A DNA stretch of 33,665 nucleotides from Acidobacteriota bacterium (lineage in GTDB: Bacteria > Acidobacteriota > Terriglobia > Terriglobales > Acidobacteriaceae). This document shows, one piece after another, positions 3,215 to 25,813 of the stretch (positions are counted from its first letter, which is position 1; each line of letters starts with the position of its first letter). The DNA lies in NCBI GenBank assembly GCA_021791935.1, contig JAJYVR010000005.1, positions 1-33,665 of the forward strand, read 5' to 3'. The position numbers and the translations under genes were made by a program. The notes beneath the pieces were generated by a model. It saw nothing but the letters and a program-made list of their open reading frames with translations. It ran no database searches and was not told the origin of the DNA.

Positions 3215-3254
3215 TGTCATCCCGAGCGAAGCGCAGCGTAGTCGAGGGACCTGC
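3215..3254 (+). repeat. REP-like palindrome copy 2 (G/C subfamily), upstream of GIY-YIG gene
   Basis: TGTCATCCCGAGCGAAGCGCAGCGTAGTCGAGGGACCTGC; short form, same ends as other copies. Confidence 0.85.
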
Positions 3255-3262
3255 TTTTAACC

Positions 3263-3625
3263 GTGCGTGAACACACCTACTTCGTTTACATAATTGCCAG
3301 CCGATCGCGCACCATTTACATCGGGATCACCAGGGATTTGCGCCGTCGCGTTTGGGAACACCAGGCCGGTACCTTCCCAGGCTTTACACGAACCTATCGC
3401 TGTCATCGGCTGGTATGGTTCGAGACGTATTTCACTGTGACGCGAGCTATTGACCGCGAAAAGCAGCTCAAAAGATGGTCGCGCACCAAGAAGATCAACC
3501 TTATTGAACAGGAAAATCAGCTATGGGCGGATCTGAGCGAAGAATGGCCTCAAACAGCAGGTCCCTCGACTGCGTCCCGTCGCCGAAGCGACGCGGACTT
3601 CGCTCGGGATGACAAAAATATTTGA
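3263..3625 (+). CDS. GIY-YIG nuclease family protein (GTG start), C-terminus encoded by repeat copy 3
   Basis: MREHTYFVYIIASRSRTIYIGITRDLRRRVWEHQAG: GIY-YIG fold motifs (VYI...YIGIT...RRVWEH). Very similar to the 23366..23680 protein. Confidence 0.88.
   Translation: MREHTYFVYIIASRSRTIYIGITRDLRRRVWEHQAGTFPGFTRTYRCHRLVWFETYFTVTRAIDREKQLKRWSRTKKINLIEQENQLWADLSEEWPQTAGPSTASRRRSDADFARDDKNI
3558..3614 (-). repeat. REP-like palindrome copy 3 (G/C subfamily), overlaps GIY-YIG 3' end
   Basis: GCAGGTCCCTCGACTGCGTCCCGTCGCCGAAGCGACGCGGACTTCGCTCGGGATGACA; internal stem GTCGC/GCGAC. Confidence 0.85.
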
Positions 3626-7706: not shown

Positions 7707-7764
7707 GCAGGTCCCTCCACTTCGGTCGTCCGCCACGGCGGATCGACCTTCGGTCGGGATGACA
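7707..7764 (-). repeat. REP-like palindrome copy 4
   Basis: GCAGGTCCCTCCACTTCGGTCGTCCGCCACGGCGGATCGACCTTCGGTCGGGATGACA; internal stem TCCGCC/GGCGGA. Confidence 0.85.
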
Positions 7765-7776
7765 AACCTTATCGCT

Positions 7777-7828
7777 TGTCATCCCGACCGGAGTTCTCGC
7801 GAAGCGAGGATGCAGTGGAGGGACCTGC
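7777..7828 (+). repeat. REP-like palindrome copy 5, inverted relative to copy 4
   Basis: TGTCATCCCGACCGGAGTTCTCGCGAAGCGAGGATGCAGTGGAGGGACCTGC; internal stem CTCGC/GCGAG. Confidence 0.85.
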
Positions 7829-9509: not shown

Positions 9510-12500
9510 ATGACAAAAGAAATTTATATCTCCAGCACCCCTCACGAAACCCGCCTCGCGGTTGTCGAAGACGACCAGCTCGCGGAAATCTATTATGAGC
9601 GCGAGAACGAGTACACCCTCGCCGGCTCCATTTACAAAGGCAAAGTCACCCGCGTCCTCCCCGGCATGCAGTCGGCCTTTGTCGATATCGGTTTGGAGCG
9701 CGATGCGTTCCTCTACGTCACCGACTTCGCCGAAGAACAGGAAGACGGCGAAGAATATGTTTCCCTCGCGCCCGGTTCTCGCGGCCGGGGGCGTTCGGCT
9801 GGCGGCCACCCCAATGGCGGTCGCGGCGCAGCCGATGCGGAACCGCAACCAGGCGGGGAAGACCCCGCATTTCGTTCTTCCGTCGAAAGAAAACCGGCAG
9901 GGAATCTGTCCGCCCGCGAAGCCTCCAGCGCGCCGGGCGACGAAGAGGGGCCGGGAGGACGGCGTTGGCGCGGTCGGCGCGGTCGGCGGCGCGGTCGCGG
10001 CGGACCAGGCGTCCACGAGCGTTCAGCTTCGCACCCTGCGACCGGATCCAGCGACCAGCGTACCGACGGCCCCGAAGCAACACAGTTTGCGACCGAGGCG
10101 GTCCCCGCCGAGGCCGATTTCGAAAGCCCGCATCAGGATTTCGCGACACCATCGGCCCCGCTCGCGCCGCAGCCGGAGCGTCCCCGGTCTTCGCATATCC
10201 GCCCCGAGCAAGCGCCTGTCGTTCTCCCTGGCGAATCGCTCTCCAAATATCGTCGCGGCGAGTCTCCCGCGCCTTCCGCGTCGGCGGCAACCCAGGAAAG
10301 ACAAACGCCAGTGCCGGCCCCCCAGCCGGCCTTCCAGCCTTCCAGCATGGTGGTAGGACCGCTGGCATGGGATGGCAGCGACGTGTTGCCGGGCGAATCC
10401 CTTTCCCGTCACATGCGCTCGGGGGAAGCGTCCTCGCCCAAGGCGGAAAGCTTCTCCTCGCTGGCAGCGGAGGTACGGCCGATTGTCGACGAGGCTCCTG
10501 CCCCCCAGCCTCCAGCCGAGACGCATCCCCCAGTCGATGAAACTCCCTTGCCCGTATTCGAGCGCGAGAGACCCGCACCGGCTTACACGGATCTGTCATC
10601 CCGATCGGAGTCCGCCACGGCGGACGAAGTGGAGGGCCCCGCGGTTTCCGAGAACTTTGAGCCCACCGAAGCGTCCGCGTCCTATCGCTTCGATCCCTCC
10701 ACGCCCAGCGCCTATCGGCAAAGCAGCGTCGCCGAACCGCCCGCGCCGGAATTTTCCAGCCACGAAACGGTTGCGGAGGCACAGCAAGAAGCCACGACCC
10801 ATCCTGGGCCGTTCCGCGGCGAGGTCGCTTCGATCGTCCAACCGGGGCATTCGCATCCAACCGTGGCAGGCGTTTCCTCCCAGACGGAAGCGATTGAATC
10901 CGTCCGCGCGCGCGGCGCGTCCGCTGGCACCGAAGACACCTCGACCGAGCAGGAAGAAAGCGCGCAAGAAGAGGACGCGACCTCCGATCGCGATGAGCAC
11001 GTCTTCGATCCCGGTCTCGGAAATCTGGAAGAGGAAATCATCGACGAAGATGAGCCGGAAGCCTATGCCGCGCAGAGTCCGCAGGATGAAGCCGAATACG
11101 ACGATCTGGTCGAAGAGACGCTCGATGTCCAGATGGACAGCGGCCTGCTCAGCGAGCTGGTGCGCGATCGGCACATTGAACAGCGCACCCGCTTCGACGA
11201 CGAAAACGCAGATGCATCGGCGGATGGCTTGGAAGTCGAGGAAGATCTCAGCGAAGACGAAGCCTTCACAGCCGAAATGGGCGAGATCGAGCTGGAAGAT
11301 GCTGCGGATTCCGCAGAGGACGAAGCGGAAGGGGACCAGCCCGCAAATGCGGATGCAACCCGCAGCCGTCCCAGCGGAGGCCGCAATGGACAGCGCGGAA
11401 ACCGCAGCCAGCAGCGTCGCGGCCAGCGTGGAGATGGCAGGATGCGTCGCGCCACCGCGCAAACCACCAACCTGCCCGCCATCACCGACCTGTTGAAGCC
11501 CAACCAGGAAATCCTGGTCCAGATCGCGAAGGAACCCATTGCGCGCAAAGGCGCGCGCATCACCAGCCACATCGCCTTGCCCGGTCGCTTCCTGGTCTTC
11601 ATGCCGACGGTGAATCATGTTGGCGTCTCCCGCAAAATTTCCTCCGATGAAGAACGTCAGCGGCTGAAGCACATTCTTCTCAGCGAAAAAGGGGCGGCCT
11701 CCGGCGGCTTTATCGTTCGCACCGCCGCTGCCACCGCCAGCGAGGAAGATCTTCGCGCCGACATTCGCTTCCTGCTGACCCTGTGGGCGGAGATTCGCCA
11801 GCGAGCGGAGAACGCCAAACCTCCGGCATTGATCTATCACGATCTCAGCCTGGTGGAACGCGTGCTGCGCGATCAGGTCACGGACAATTTCTCCTCCATC
11901 TGGGTCGACACCGAGGCGGACTACGAGCGGGTCCTGCGCTTTCTCGGCCGCTTTGAGCCCTCCCTGGTGCGGCGCGTCAAGCTCTACACCAAGGAAACGC
12001 CGCTGTTCGAGCAGTTCGGCATTCAGGAAGAAATCAACAATGCGCTGCGCTCCAAGGTGTGGCTCAAATCCGGCGGCTCCATCGTTATCAACCAGACCGA
12101 GGCGCTGGTGGCCATCGACATCAACACCGGAAAATACGTCGGCAAAACAGCGCGCCTGGAAGACACTATTCTCAAGACCAACCTCGACGCCATTCCAGAG
12201 ATTGTCCGCCAGATTCGTCTGCGCGATCTGGGCGGCATCATCGTCATCGACTTCATCGACATGGATGAACGCAGGAACCGCAATCGAGTGATGCTGGCGC
12301 TGGAAGACGCATTGAAGTCCGATCGCGCCCCATCGAAGGTCTTGCAGTTCAACGATTTCGGCCTGGTGGCGATCACGCGCAAACGCGTCAAGCAATCGCT
12401 GGAGCGCACTCTGTCCGTTCCTTGCTCCGTTTGCACCGGGACAGGCATGGTCAAAGGACCGCTGACGGTCTGCAATGAGATTTATGTCGAGTTGCGCAAG

Positions 12501-12674
12501 ATGTATCGTCAAATTGACCGCGGCGATATTCTCCTGCGTGTGAATCCAGAGGTCGTCAAGCAGTTGAAACAGTCAAATGGCCGCTGGCTCAGCGAGATGG
12601 AGGAAATGTCCGGCAAAACTGTCATTGTCAAAAGCGATGCCAGTCTGCATCCGGAGCAGTTCGATATTCAATAA
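9510..12674 (+). CDS. rng: Ribonuclease E/G family protein with about 580-aa insertion in the S1 domain
   Basis: N-terminal IYKGKVTRVLPGMQSAFVDIGLERDAFLYVTD; C-terminal QTEALVAIDINTGKYVG, LRDLGGIIVIDFIDMD and zinc-link CSVCTGTG match RNase E/G. Confidence 0.93.
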   Translation: MTKEIYISSTPHETRLAVVEDDQLAEIYYERENEYTLAGSIYKGKVTRVLPGMQSAFVDIGLERDAFLYVTDFAEEQEDGEEYVSLAPGSRGRGRSAGGHPNGGRGAADAEPQPGGEDPAFRSSVERKPAGNLSAREASSAPGDEEGPGGRRWRGRRGRRRGRGGPGVHERSASHPATGSSDQRTDGPEATQFATEAVPAEADFESPHQDFATPSAPLAPQPERPRSSHIRPEQAPVVLPGESLSKYRRGESPAPSASAATQERQTPVPAPQPAFQPSSMVVGPLAWDGSDVLPGESLSRHMRSGEASSPKAESFSSLAAEVRPIVDEAPAPQPPAETHPPVDETPLPVFERERPAPAYTDLSSRSESATADEVEGPAVSENFEPTEASASYRFDPSTPSAYRQSSVAEPPAPEFSSHETVAEAQQEATTHPGPFRGEVASIVQPGHSHPTVAGVSSQTEAIESVRARGASAGTEDTSTEQEESAQEEDATSDRDEHVFDPGLGNLEEEIIDEDEPEAYAAQSPQDEAEYDDLVEETLDVQMDSGLLSELVRDRHIEQRTRFDDENADASADGLEVEEDLSEDEAFTAEMGEIELEDAADSAEDEAEGDQPANADATRSRPSGGRNGQRGNRSQQRRGQRGDGRMRRATAQTTNLPAITDLLKPNQEILVQIAKEPIARKGARITSHIALPGRFLVFMPTVNHVGVSRKISSDEERQRLKHILLSEKGAASGGFIVRTAAATASEEDLRADIRFLLTLWAEIRQRAENAKPPALIYHDLSLVERVLRDQVTDNFSSIWVDTEADYERVLRFLGRFEPSLVRRVKLYTKETPLFEQFGIQEEINNALRSKVWLKSGGSIVINQTEALVAIDINTGKYVGKTARLEDTILKTNLDAIPEIVRQIRLRDLGGIIVIDFIDMDERRNRNRVMLALEDALKSDRAPSKVLQFNDFGLVAITRKRVKQSLERTLSVPCSVCTGTGMVKGPLTVCNEIYVELRKMYRQIDRGDILLRVNPEVVKQLKQSNGRWLSEMEEMSGKTVIVKSDASLHPEQFDIQ
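10594..10643 (+). repeat. REP-like palindrome copy 6, in frame inside rng CDS (degenerate)
   Basis: TGTCATCCCGATCGGAGTCCGCCACGGCGGACGAAGTGGAGGGCCCCGCG; internal stem GTCCGCC/GGCGGAC; translated in frame as LSSRSESATADEVEGPAV. Confidence 0.8.
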
Positions 12675-21699: not shown

Positions 21700-23211
21700 G
21701 TGAATCGAATGGCAACCGCAAGACGCAGCACCAGGAACTTTAAGAATTTGATTGGCGGCAAATGGGTCAGCGCCCACTCCCGCAAAACGTTTGAGAATCG
21801 CAATCCCGCAAAGAACCGCGACTTGGTCGGCATCTTTCCCGCGTCCGATACACGAGATGTCTCCGACGCCGTCTCCGCAGCCAAACAAGCCTTCCAAACC
21901 TGGCGGCTGGTGCCCGCCCCCAAGCGCGCCGAGATCCTGTTCCGCGCCGGCGAAATCCTCACCGAACGCAAAGAGCAGTATGCCCGCGATATGACCCGCG
22001 AAATGGGAAAGGTGCTGGAAGAAACCCGCGGCGATGTGCAGGAAGCCATCGACACCGCCTTCTACATGGCCGGCGAGGGTCGCCGCATGTTCGGCAACAC
22101 CACGCCCTCCGAGTTGCAGAATAAATTTGCCATGAGCGTGCGCATGCCCGTCGGCGTCTGCGGCATGATCACTCCGTGGAATTTTCCCATGGCCATCCCC
22201 TCCTGGAAGCTGCTGCCGGCCATCGTCTGCGGCAACACCTGCGTCATCAAACCCGCGCAGGCCACGCCGCTTTCCACCTACAACCTGGTGCAGGCGCTGC
22301 TCGATGCCGGCTTGCCCAATGGCGTCGTCAATATCGTTTCCGGTTCCGGCGGCCAGGTCGGCATGCCGTTAGTCGAGCATCCCGACGTCAACGCCATCAG
22401 CCTCACGGGATCGAGTGAAGTCGGTCGCGCCGTCGGCATGGCCGCGGCCGCCGGTTTCAAACCCTGCTCGCTGGAACTCGGCGGCAAAAACGCCATGATC
22501 GTCATGGACGACGCCAATCTCGATCTGGCCGTCGAAGGCGCGCTCTGGGGAGCGTTTGGCACCACTGGCCAGCGCTGCACCGCCACCAGCCGCATCCTGA
22601 TTTGCAAGAAAATTGCCCGCCGCTTCACCGAGCAATTGGTCGAGCGCGTCCGCAAGCTGCGCATCGGCAACGGCCTGGAAAAAGGCGTGCAGGTCGGTCC
22701 GCTGGTCAACCAGCAGCAGGTGGAAACCAGCGCCATGTATGTCAAAATCGCTCTCGATGAAGGCGCAAAACTTCTTGCCGGCGGCAAGCGCCTGCAAGGC
22801 AGGGCCTATGCGGATGGATATTTTTTCGCTCCCACCATCTTTGGCGGAGTGAAGCCGTCGATGCGGGTCGCGCGCGAAGAAGTCTTCGGTCCCGTCCTCA
22901 GTCTGTTGGAGTTCGACAATTTTGAGCACGCCCTTCAAATTGCCAACGATGTCGACTACGGTCTCTCCGCCGCCATCTACACTCGCGATGTCAACCAGGC
23001 CTATCGCGCCATGCGCGACATCGACACCGGCATCGTCTACATCAATGCGCCCACCATTGGCGCGGAAGTGCATCTGCCCTTCGGCGGCGTCAAGCAGACC
23101 GGCAACGGCCATCGCGAAGGCGGCAGCGGCGCGTTGGATTTCTACACCGCCTGGAAGTCCGTCTACGTGGATTATTCCGATCGCCTGCAGCGCGCCCAGA
23201 TCGACGATTGA
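21700..23211 (+). CDS. Aldehyde dehydrogenase family protein (NAD(P)-dependent semialdehyde-type)
   Basis: [48 protein letters not shown] catalytic Cys, [16 protein letters not shown]. Confidence 0.92.
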
Positions 23212-23327: not shown

Positions 23328-23386
23328 TGTCATCCCGAGCGAAGGAATCCCAGCGCACGCTGGGATTATGCAGTCGAGGGACCTGC
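23328..23386 (+). repeat. REP-like palindrome copy 7 (G/C subfamily), overlaps 3' end of GIY-YIG gene
   Basis: TGTCATCCCGAGCGAAGGAATCCCAGCGCACGCTGGGATTATGCAGTCGAGGGACCTGC; internal stem AATCCCAGCG/CGCTGGGATT. Confidence 0.88.
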
Positions 23387-23680
23387 GTTTGGATACCATC
23401 CGTCGCTCAGATCAGTCCAAGTTGGATTTTGTTTCTCTATCAAAGTGATCTTCTTGCTTCGCGACCAGTTTTTGAGTTGTTTCTCGCGCGCGATGGCCAG
23501 AGGTACCGAAACATAGGATTCGAACCATACCAGGCGGTGACAACGATATTTCGAAGTGAAACCGGGATATGTGCCGGCTTTATGTTCCCAAACTCGTCGC
23601 TCCAGATTGTTCGTAATGCCGATATACAGCACATGAGTCCGGCTTGCGACAATGTAAGTGTAATAGTGATGTTCTCGCAT
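23366..23680 (-). CDS. GIY-YIG nuclease family protein
   Basis: MREHHYYTYIVASRTHVLYIGITNNLERRVWEHKAGTYPGF...; close paralogue of 3263..3625; ends ...NAGPSTA encoded by repeat copy 7. Confidence 0.9.
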   Translation of the reverse strand: MREHHYYTYIVASRTHVLYIGITNNLERRVWEHKAGTYPGFTSKYRCHRLVWFESYVSVPLAIAREKQLKNWSRSKKITLIEKQNPTWTDLSDGWYPNAGPSTA

Positions 23681-23721
23681 CAGGCTCCAACTCGATCAGA
23701 CGGCTTTTCGATTATATGTTG

Positions 23722-23779
23722 GTCATCCCGAGCGAGGTAGTCACAGCCTGCGCTGCGACTGCGCAGTCGAGGGACCTGC
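23722..23779 (+). repeat. REP-like palindrome copy 8 (G/C subfamily)
   Basis: GTCATCCCGAGCGAGGTAGTCACAGCCTGCGCTGCGACTGCGCAGTCGAGGGACCTGC; internal near-perfect stem AGTCACAGC/GCTGCGACT. Confidence 0.86.
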
Positions 23780-23845
23780 GGTTGGATACCAATGTGTTCG
23801 GCTAGCTACAATGTAAACGTAAACGTAATAACGGTGTTCACGCAT
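23741..23845 (-). pseudogene. Internally deleted, in-frame GIY-YIG gene remnant (34 codons)
   Basis: Reverse complement reads MREHRYYVYVYIVASRTH|WYPTAGPSTAQSQRRL*: the start and end of the neighbouring GIY-YIG protein joined without the middle. Confidence 0.8.
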
Positions 23846-24554
23846 GAATGATCAGATCAATCAAATCAGGCAGCTTCTTGATCAATTAGAAGCTGGTTCA
23901 GAGGTAAAGGCCAGTTCCAAGAGCCTAGCCGAATTTTCTGCTTTAGAGCTCCCGCAAATCATTCAAGAAGTTGTAGATGATCTTCAGCCACTTTTAACAC
24001 CCTACGAAGCCGCGTTTTACTGGTATCTCTTTCGACATTCAATTGCGGGGAACGGGAGCGCATATCTGCGAACTGGCCACAGGCGTCTGTGCAAAGGCGT
24101 TGCAAAATCCTCTCGCTCAGGCCGGGCAGAGAACCCTGTTGCGCCGAGCAAGGTTCAGGAAATCCTGCGTGAATTGGAGTCAATTGGCGCAATTCGCAAA
24201 GAAGGTGAACCCAATCGTGAAGGCACACTCTATCGGGTTCTTGTTCCTGACGAAATCGAAGCTTGCAGGAAATATCGTGCAGAGCGCCTTACAGAAAACC
24301 TACCGCCTGAAGCCCTTGAGGCTGAAATTGATCACTACAACGTGCGCGAAAATCGCGTGAAAATCTTTGAGCGGGACCAGTACAAATGCTTCTATTGTGA
24401 GAAGCAGCTTACTCGCTTTACCGCGACACTTGATCACATCACGCCCGTCGCGGAGGGTGGTGGCAACGATATAGGCAATTTAATTACTGCCTGTTTGCAC
24501 TGCAATTCCCGGAAACAGAAACGTCCTTTGGACGATTTCCTTGCTGAAAGCTGA
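23844..24554 (+). CDS. HNH endonuclease with N-terminal winged-helix-like region
   Basis: IFERDQYKCFYCEKQL...TLDHITPVAEGGGNDIGNLITACLHCNSRKQKR: HNH with paired CxxC; N-terminal LTPYEAAFYWYLFRHS... resembles HTH. Confidence 0.88.
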   Translation: MNDQINQIRQLLDQLEAGSEVKASSKSLAEFSALELPQIIQEVVDDLQPLLTPYEAAFYWYLFRHSIAGNGSAYLRTGHRRLCKGVAKSSRSGRAENPVAPSKVQEILRELESIGAIRKEGEPNREGTLYRVLVPDEIEACRKYRAERLTENLPPEALEAEIDHYNVRENRVKIFERDQYKCFYCEKQLTRFTATLDHITPVAEGGGNDIGNLITACLHCNSRKQKRPLDDFLAES

Positions 24555-24590
24555 TCGATCAGCGTGATGGAATCCCATAATGGCGGAAAC

Positions 24591-24639
24591 GCAGGTCCCT
24601 CCGCTGCGGTCGCCGCGGCGACCTCCGGTCGGGATGACA
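24591..24639 (-). repeat. REP-like palindrome copy 9 (C/G subfamily)
   Basis: GCAGGTCCCTCCGCTGCGGTCGCCGCGGCGACCTCCGGTCGGGATGACA; internal stem GGTCGCC/GGCGACC. Confidence 0.86.
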
Positions 24640-24697: not shown

Positions 24698-25813
24698 ATG
24701 ATTATCGGCGTTCCCAAAGAAGTAAAAGACCACGAAAGCCGCGTCGGCGTCACCCCTGCCGGCGTCAAGGCCCTCGTCGAAGCGGGCCACACGGTCCTGG
24801 TCGAAACCAATGCGGGGGCCCTCTCCTCGCTCCCCGATGATGAATATCAATCGGCAGGCGCGGAAATCGCCGGCTCGGCCTACGATGTCTGGCGTCTCTC
24901 CGACATGATCGTCAAGGTCAAGGAGCCGGTCGAGAAAGAGTACGGTCATTTCCGCGAGGGACTGGTCCTGTTCACCTATCTGCACCTCGCGCCTCTTCCC
25001 GCGCTGACCGCCAAGCTGCTGGAGAAAAAAGTCATCGGCATCGCCTATGAAACGATTCGCGACAAAGCCGGCACGCTGCCGCTACTGACGCCGATGTCGG
25101 AAGTGGCGGGACGAATGTCGGTGCAGGTCGGCGCTGCCCACCTGGAAAAAGAAAAAGGCGGTCGCGGCGTTCTTCTCGGCGGTATTCCCGGCGTGCCGCC
25201 TGGAAATGTCTGCATCATCGGCGGCGGCATCGTCGGCACCAACGCCGCCAAAGTTGCGCTCGGCATGGGCGCGAAGGTCACCATCATCGACATGAACCTG
25301 AACCGTCTGCGCGAACTGGACGACATCTTCAATGGCCGCGTCTACACCCTCGCCTCCAACTCCTACAACGTCGGCCGTGCCGTGCGCGAAGCGGACCTGC
25401 TTATCGGCGGCGTATTGATCCCCGGCGCCGCCGCTCCTAAAATCGTCACTCGCGCGATGGTCTCCGCCATGAAAAAAGGCGCGGTGATTGTGGATGTTGC
25501 CATCGATCAAGGCGGCTGCATTGAGACCGCCCGTCCCACCACCCACAGCGATCCCTCCTACGTGCTGGATGGCGTGGTGCATTATTGCGTGACCAACATG
25601 CCGGCAGCGGTGCCGCATACTTCGACCCTCGGCCTCACCAACGCGACCTTTCCGTATGTGCTGCGGCTGGCCACGCTCGGCCCGAAGGCGGCCATTCAAG
25701 CCGATGCCGGACTGCAGGATGGCGTCAACACCTACAACGGCAGTCTGACCTGCAAGCCCGTCGCGGAATCCCAGGGTATGCCCTGGAAATCCGTGACCGA
25801 ACTGGTGCATTGA
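24698..25813 (+). CDS. ald: Alanine dehydrogenase
   Basis: [85 protein letters not shown]. Confidence 0.95.

Follow-up and report, generated by a model that had tools for sequence, protein, structure and literature searches.

Background

Repetitive extragenic palindromes (REPs) are split into the GTAG superfamily, which is linked to REP-associated tyrosine transposases (RAYTs), and the CGTC superfamily (Di Nocera et al., PMC3733652). The association of RAYTs with GTAG REPs is described in PMC2817692. CGTC REPs carry a CGTC or TGTC tag, a stem starting with AT and a CCA-like tail; they include dRS3 of Neisseria and RPE-4/6 of Rickettsia, and in 2013 were said to 'apparently lack a dedicated transposase' (PMC3733652). 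The present text concerns an island of two GIY-YIG nuclease genes, one of them a remnant, an HNH nuclease gene and three hairpin-forming repeats, located between an aldehyde dehydrogenase (ALDH) gene and an alanine dehydrogenase (ALD) gene. It lies in a 33.7-kb stretch of contig C56, analysed as a whole and referred to here as the window, from an acidobacterial draft genome of 3.17 Mb in 314 contigs. The island is probably a composite of two small mobile units belonging to a bacteria-wide class of elements, in which a GIY-YIG gene is combined with matching REPs and mobilised by its own nuclease.

Each unit would consist of a GIY-YIG gene inside inverted REP-type hairpins, with the layout R(+) GIY> R(-). 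The nuclease would cut the hairpin or cruciform of its cognate REP subfamily; as the break is repaired or replicated across, both whole units and lone repeats would be copied or moved. Scattered REPs would then be non-autonomous derivatives, as GTAG REPs depend on RAYT transposases. Of the two units in the island, one would be intact but without a canonical upstream repeat, while the other would have undergone an internal deletion of its nuclease gene and acquired the HNH gene, which now sits between the GIY start codon and copy 9, the outer repeat. The HNH gene, which has homologues living elsewhere, may have been brought in by recombination.

GIY-YIG genes and inverted repeats form a recurrent unit

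The pairing of a GIY-YIG gene with inverted hairpin repeats is a general phenomenon, missed by the preliminary description of this DNA, and the two make up one recurrent unit across bacterial phyla. Among GIY loci of the Acidobacteriaceae, repeats within 200 bp on each side of the gene are present in 27 of 32, against a frequency of 0.00015 at random positions in control loci. In 20 of these 27 two-sided loci the upstream repeat is in (+) and the downstream one in (-) orientation, and none (0/27) has the reverse order. In named genomes, repeats are found on both sides in 27 of 32 acidobacterial loci and 27 of 45 loci from other phyla, the latter spanning Chloroflexi, Patescibacteria, Gemmatimonadetes, Planctomycetes, Nitrospirae and Deltaproteobacteria among other groups. 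An inverted repeat shared by the two flanks reached significance in 53 of the 77 named-genome loci, including 28 of the 45 outside the Acidobacteria, and TGTC or CGTC tags are also seen in the repeats at other loci. As a separate observation, on a Planktothrix agardhii plasmid (L264) a GIY gene accompanied by TGTC repeats has an MmeI-type restriction gene on one side and the DISARM gene drmA on the other.

The two repeats of a locus also match each other, since 47 of 57 flank pairs are of the same repeat subtype (19 expected). Repeat subtype follows the GIY tree, with 26 changes against 40 after shuffling (0/300 shuffles), and does so within the family as well (7 changes against 11.6, 0/300). 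The draft genome itself contains a third GIY paralogue, on contig C252, enclosed by a different repeat subfamily. At the level of whole genomes, a GIY gene is present in 2 of 14 without a detectable repeat and in 125 of 186 with one (p 1.3e-4).

An association of this kind might arise if GIY-YIG genes and hairpin repeats shared an intergenic habitat and nothing else, the nuclease being an unrelated selfish or repair gene and the repeats regulatory or passive. REPs are indeed common intergenic elements, the broader repeat pattern occurring in 186 of 200 genomes of the family, and some GIY loci are without them. However, the consistent orientation and the matching of subtypes argue against such a coincidence, as do Y1 and HNH loci that lack repeats, and we regard this explanation as improbable.

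The repeat family of the genome

The hairpin-forming repeat is 39-58 nt long and has 38 copies in the 3.17-Mb genome, compared with 0 for a reversed control pattern. Eight of the 38 exact-pattern copies fall in the window, which is 1% of the genome (0.4 expected, P ~1e-8). One base pair of the outer stem covaries strictly, being C-G in 21 copies and G-C in 12, with 1 exception (33/34, p 2.8e-9). Opposed GA and GA residues stand beside this pair, and the inner stem varies between copies in both sequence and length. The tag is TGTC in 8 of the 9 copies of the window and GGTC in copy 8.

Two further arrangements were seen in the window. A repeat at 10589-10650 lies inside a long open reading frame (ORF; 9510-12674), and congener G007 has the repeat at the same place, where its inner stem is different and longer. 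At 7707-7828 two repeats have their tagged ends face to face, about 14 nt apart; only one is present in G007.

Transposases of the Y1/RAYT type are another conceivable agent for moving these repeats. PF01797 genes are present in the genome, and RAYTs are the enzymes associated with GTAG REPs (PMC2817692). None of the Y1/RAYT-type genes of this genome is flanked by the repeats, however, a result that agrees with that of Di Nocera et al. for CGTC REPs (PMC3733652), and this agent is very unlikely.

Presence and absence at orthologous sites

Units are present or absent at orthologous sites in several lineages. In all nine congeners examined the two dehydrogenase genes are neighbours, separated by about 35-300 bp that hold neither a gene nor the block. 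A single repeat occupies the ALDH-ALD spacer of congener G002. The congeners that were examined for the window's separate GIY unit at 3216-3613 lack this one too; the corresponding spacer of G002 contains a dimer of repeats. Because the congener spacers are without the block and that of G002 holds a single repeat, the island is most simply explained as having been inserted in this lineage, at a spacer where repeats are tolerated. The ALDH-ALD spacers of three congeners and relatives (L040, L043 and L054) contain other short palindromic repeats, for example GGGCACGGCATTAGCCGTGCC and GGGCACGACTTCAGTCGTGCC.

In Azospirillum lipoferum a unit is inserted between sufB and sufC, and three congeners of about 95% identity have sufB-sufC without a unit and without any REP. 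On seven Sphingobium plasmids the interval from fnrL to a response regulator gene holds a unit, which measures 383 bp in TomMM15. Of four Sphingobium plasmids that lack the GIY gene and were read at this site, two (TYG64 and TYG74) have a 29-bp hairpin at the same point and two have nothing. The 29-bp hairpin looks like the two outer ends of the unit joined together, and the alternation would look the same for an internal-deletion derivative and for an empty homing target.

These sites bear on the closest rival to mobilisation by the nuclease, namely that GIY-YIG is a free-standing homing endonuclease for which REP hairpins are landing sites, and which invades existing REPs or REP dimers and does not generate them. 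It is consistent with the alternation of GIY unit and short REP hairpin at one Sphingobium site, and with the repeats that G002 holds in both spacers where the window has GIY insertions. The Sphingobium case may also be explained by an internal deletion that removed the unit, though, and the empty Azospirillum sites have no REP. Moreover, matched subtypes within pairs and the correspondence of subtype to GIY clade imply that gene and repeats have long been inherited together. Homing into pre-existing repeats is rather unlikely.

Organization of the island

The features of the island and of the other GIY unit in the window are listed in Table 1. The block runs repeat copy 7(+), GIY-YIG(-), copy 8(+), truncated GIY-YIG(-), HNH(+), copy 9(-), and coordinates, Pfam matches and the alignment of the remnant all bear out this order as given in the preliminary description. 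Copy 8 also stands 5' of the intact GIY gene, in a non-canonical orientation.

Table 1. Features of the island and of the second GIY-YIG unit, in window positions
Feature	Position	Strand	Remarks
Aldehyde dehydrogenase gene	21700-23211		left neighbour of the block
Repeat copy 7	23329-23386	+	TGTC-tagged hairpin at the 3' end of the intact GIY-YIG gene; canonical orientation
Intact GIY-YIG nuclease gene, 104 aa	23366-23680	-	PF01541; C-terminus encoded by copy 7
Repeat copy 8	23722-23779	+	downstream repeat of the second, truncated GIY unit
Truncated GIY-YIG remnant	23741-23845	-	34-codon in-frame deletion derivative; residues 1-18 joined to a repeat-encoded tail
HNH nuclease gene, 236 aa	23844-24554	+	PF01844; complete CxxC/DH/N/CxxC motif
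Repeat copy 9	24591-24638	-	forms with copy 8 the canonical inverted pair around the remnant and the HNH gene
Alanine dehydrogenase gene	24698-25813		right neighbour of the block
Upstream repeat of the separate canonical unit	3216-3254	+	
Second intact GIY-YIG gene	3263-3625	+	66% identical to the first; canonical unit R(+) GIY R(-)
Repeat copy 3	3557-3613	-	downstream repeat of the 3216-3613 unit

The intact GIY-YIG ORF matches Pfam PF01541 with an E value of 2.5e-14 (53.7 bits against a gathering score of 22.6). Residues Y9, Y19, G21, H33 and E66 are invariant among 15 family relatives, and by this domain match and the conserved catalytic-type residues the protein is assigned to the GIY-YIG nuclease superfamily as a putative nuclease. 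The closest named relatives that a search with GIY-YIG returned are Acidobacteriaceae/Terriglobia, and no close phage relatives were found, the phage matches being weak and partial.

The remnant was recognized at 23792-23845(-), which matches the 5' end of the intact gene with a local score of 38, the best of 2000 shuffles reaching 32. The only other chunks of the window that attain this score belong to the GIY gene at 3263. It is an in-frame internal deletion, in which MREHRYYVYVYIVASRTH is joined directly to WYPTAGPSTA..., compared with MREHHYYTYIVASRTH...WYPNAGPSTA in the intact protein, and retains codons 1-18 with the C-terminal tail that the repeat encodes. A truncation similar in kind occurs in nine Sinorhizobium medicae plasmid records (hits H70-H78), where the match to the GIY gene covers no more than its initial 30-31 codons.

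The preliminary description also pointed to a direct duplication of the repeat together with an adjoining tail. The duplication is real, 23329-23398 and 23722-23791 being 83% identical over 70 nt, and the shared tail 'TTGGATACC' consists of the GIY gene's 3' end, which extends into the repeat. It is not evidence of a recent tandem event, because the whole of copy 3 is equally similar to copies 7 and 8: these two are 0.82 identical, and each is 0.81-0.82 identical to copy 3. The remnant, too, matches the two intact GIY genes equally (42/57 and 41/57 nt).

The module model built on this duplication, in which a [repeat + GIY-YIG] module was duplicated in tandem on site, one copy then decayed and HNH was inserted, holds in part. 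Repeat-bounded GIY units, one of them decayed, and an HNH gene from elsewhere all remain. The tandem step has in its favour the direct order R-GIY-R-dGIY in one orientation and the identity of the 70-nt stretches, but it is neither specifically supported nor needed, since copy 3, in a unit 20 kb away, is as near to copies 7 and 8 as these are to one another. An old duplication, or a pair of adjacent related units, would fit equally well, and the tandem model is conceivable but somewhat doubtful.

The HNH gene

The HNH ORF matches PF01844 with an E value of 8.8e-12. Its start codon (23844-23846) and that of the remnant (23843-23845, minus strand) overlap head to head. Homology to its relatives sets in exactly at this ATG; the leader that they possess has been lost from the island gene. 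Close homologues, alignable over most of the length at 54-63% identity, occur in 7 of 298 genomes of the order, all in one other genus. There they occupy a conserved locus beside a thioesterase-like gene, with the functions of the neighbours judged by eye from sequence, and no GIY gene or repeat is found near the full-length homologues at that locus. Remoter relatives, with 44% and about 33% identity, are present in a few genomes elsewhere in the phylum. All that the congeners examined possess is a protein with an HNH domain, whose match of about 35% is confined to the HNH stretch; the full-length protein is absent from all of them. In particular, none has it between the two dehydrogenases, where its conservation in relatives lacking the repeats and the GIY-YIG gene would, according to the preliminary description, have refuted the reading proposed there. 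In three of the HNH homologues (L101, L102 and L103) the DH motif is replaced by DY, and the nuclease may be inactive there.

On these comparisons the HNH gene is captured cargo acquired from elsewhere, because its close homologues reside at another locus without repeats or GIY and the congeners are without a full-length copy; it is a one-off beside the general pairing of GIY with inverted repeats. The alternative is that it acts as a functional partner of the GIY element in a two-nuclease system. The gene does lie inside a repeat pair, at full length and with its HNH motif intact. Nevertheless, this combination occurs once, the close full-length homologues sit at an unrelated conserved locus without repeats, and HNH is found in none of the other family GIY loci scanned. 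A two-nuclease system is disfavoured, and we consider it extremely improbable.

Several known systems were considered for the HNH protein and set aside. Its match to IscB/OMEGA is confined to the HNH stretch (50.8 of 175 bits), and Rfam returned over the island only a chance miRNA match, with no omega RNA or known repeat RNA. The match to Cas9d is likewise limited to the HNH stretch. Of the anti-phage HNH systems (PtuB and others), again only the HNH stretch matches, and no partner gene adjoins. A single-sequence AlphaFold model had a pLDDT of 37.6 and was discarded.

Strength and significance of the proposed explanation

Several points weigh against units mobilised by their nuclease. The evidence from orthologous sites is one of presence and absence, with no movement observed, and the spacers at the ALDH-ALD, 3216-3613, Azospirillum and Sphingobium sites are too diverged for a target-site duplication to be defined. 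The intact unit of the island itself lacks a canonical upstream repeat orientation, and the island is known from one contig of a draft metagenome-assembled genome, an assembly without a read check. By the strict pattern about 15% of family loci and 40% of other-phyla loci are without repeats on both sides. The tracking of subtype by GIY clade may derive partly from host phylogeny. GIY genes and REPs both accumulate in intergenic space, and part of their association could reflect shared tolerance, although the orientation bias and pair matching disfavour this as the sole cause.

The records of a plasmid collection extend the pairing to hosts of CGTC REPs. Inverted and often identical CGTC repeats enclose a GIY gene in Sinorhizobium meliloti, A. 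lipoferum, Novosphingobium aromaticivorans and Neisseria gonorrhoeae, all four being species or genera named in PMC3733652, where the CGTC-1 repeats of N. gonorrhoeae are dRS3. CGTC repeats also enclose a GIY gene in Shinella, Sphingobium, Rhizobium CIAT894 and Bradyrhizobium. No flanking repeats were found at the GIY locus of a Rhizobium tumorigenes plasmid, and the Aeromonas case is only marginal. In the open-access literature searched, with preprints and most subscription journals outside its scope, no paper links GIY-YIG to these repeats, and the literal repeat sequences returned only unrelated papers.

The broader proposal, that throughout bacteria the CGTC/TGTC-tagged REP superfamily is mobilised by small GIY-YIG nucleases dedicated to it and that the window holds a unit in the course of gaining cargo, is evenly poised. 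A candidate enzyme enclosed by matching repeats would close the gap for CGTC REPs, which are found in several phyla (PMC3733652), and the spread of these repeats without a transposase, including that of Neisseria dRS3, would be explained. REP systems would then be of two kinds, the second driven by another nuclease fold, and a small nuclease/hairpin pair would be available for study. The island would further illustrate that such units are able to pick up passenger genes.

Comparison with known systems

By sequence, the nearest solved relatives of the GIY-YIG protein are small proteins of the UPF0213/YhbQ type (PDB 1zg2 and 1ywl, E 1e-4 and 0.012). Free-standing GIY-YIG homing endonucleases share with it the catalytic domain PF01541 and mobile behaviour, but the island gene is without an intron and its kind is recurrently paired with matched inverted hairpins. 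The repeats resemble miniature inverted-repeat transposable elements (MITEs) of insertion sequences in being short inverted-repeat derivatives of an element that bears a nuclease gene; no target-site duplication was found, in spacers too diverged to define one, and the GIY unit encodes no DDE or Y1 enzyme.

With CGTC REPs the window's repeats have in common a (C/T)GTC tag and their occurrence as scattered intergenic hairpins. A paired A/T stem start is seen in the ATCCT..AGGAT and ATTC..GAAT subtypes, and the first pair of the window subfamily is A-C. The tail is CCA in the C252 subfamily and at proteobacterial loci, and CTG in the window's subfamily, which also differs from CGTC REPs by its long, variable inner stems. 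Since the tag is present and the copies, at 39-58 nt, exceed the 4-5 nt loop and 8-9 bp stem of the CGTC superfamily, the subfamily appears related to that superfamily and is not proven to be part of it.

The REPtron, a GTAG REP combined with a RAYT (PMC2817692), differs in its enzyme and tag: the gene enclosed here is a GIY-YIG nuclease and not an HUH/Y1 tyrosine transposase, which excludes membership among RAYT REPtrons, and the tag is (C/T)GTC and not GTAG. The architecture is nonetheless alike. Two inverted REPs surround the gene at 20 of the 32 family loci, a small single gene lies between two inverted hairpin repeats whose subfamily is also scattered over the genome, and, as in REPtrons, gene clade and repeat subtype go together (PMC2817692).
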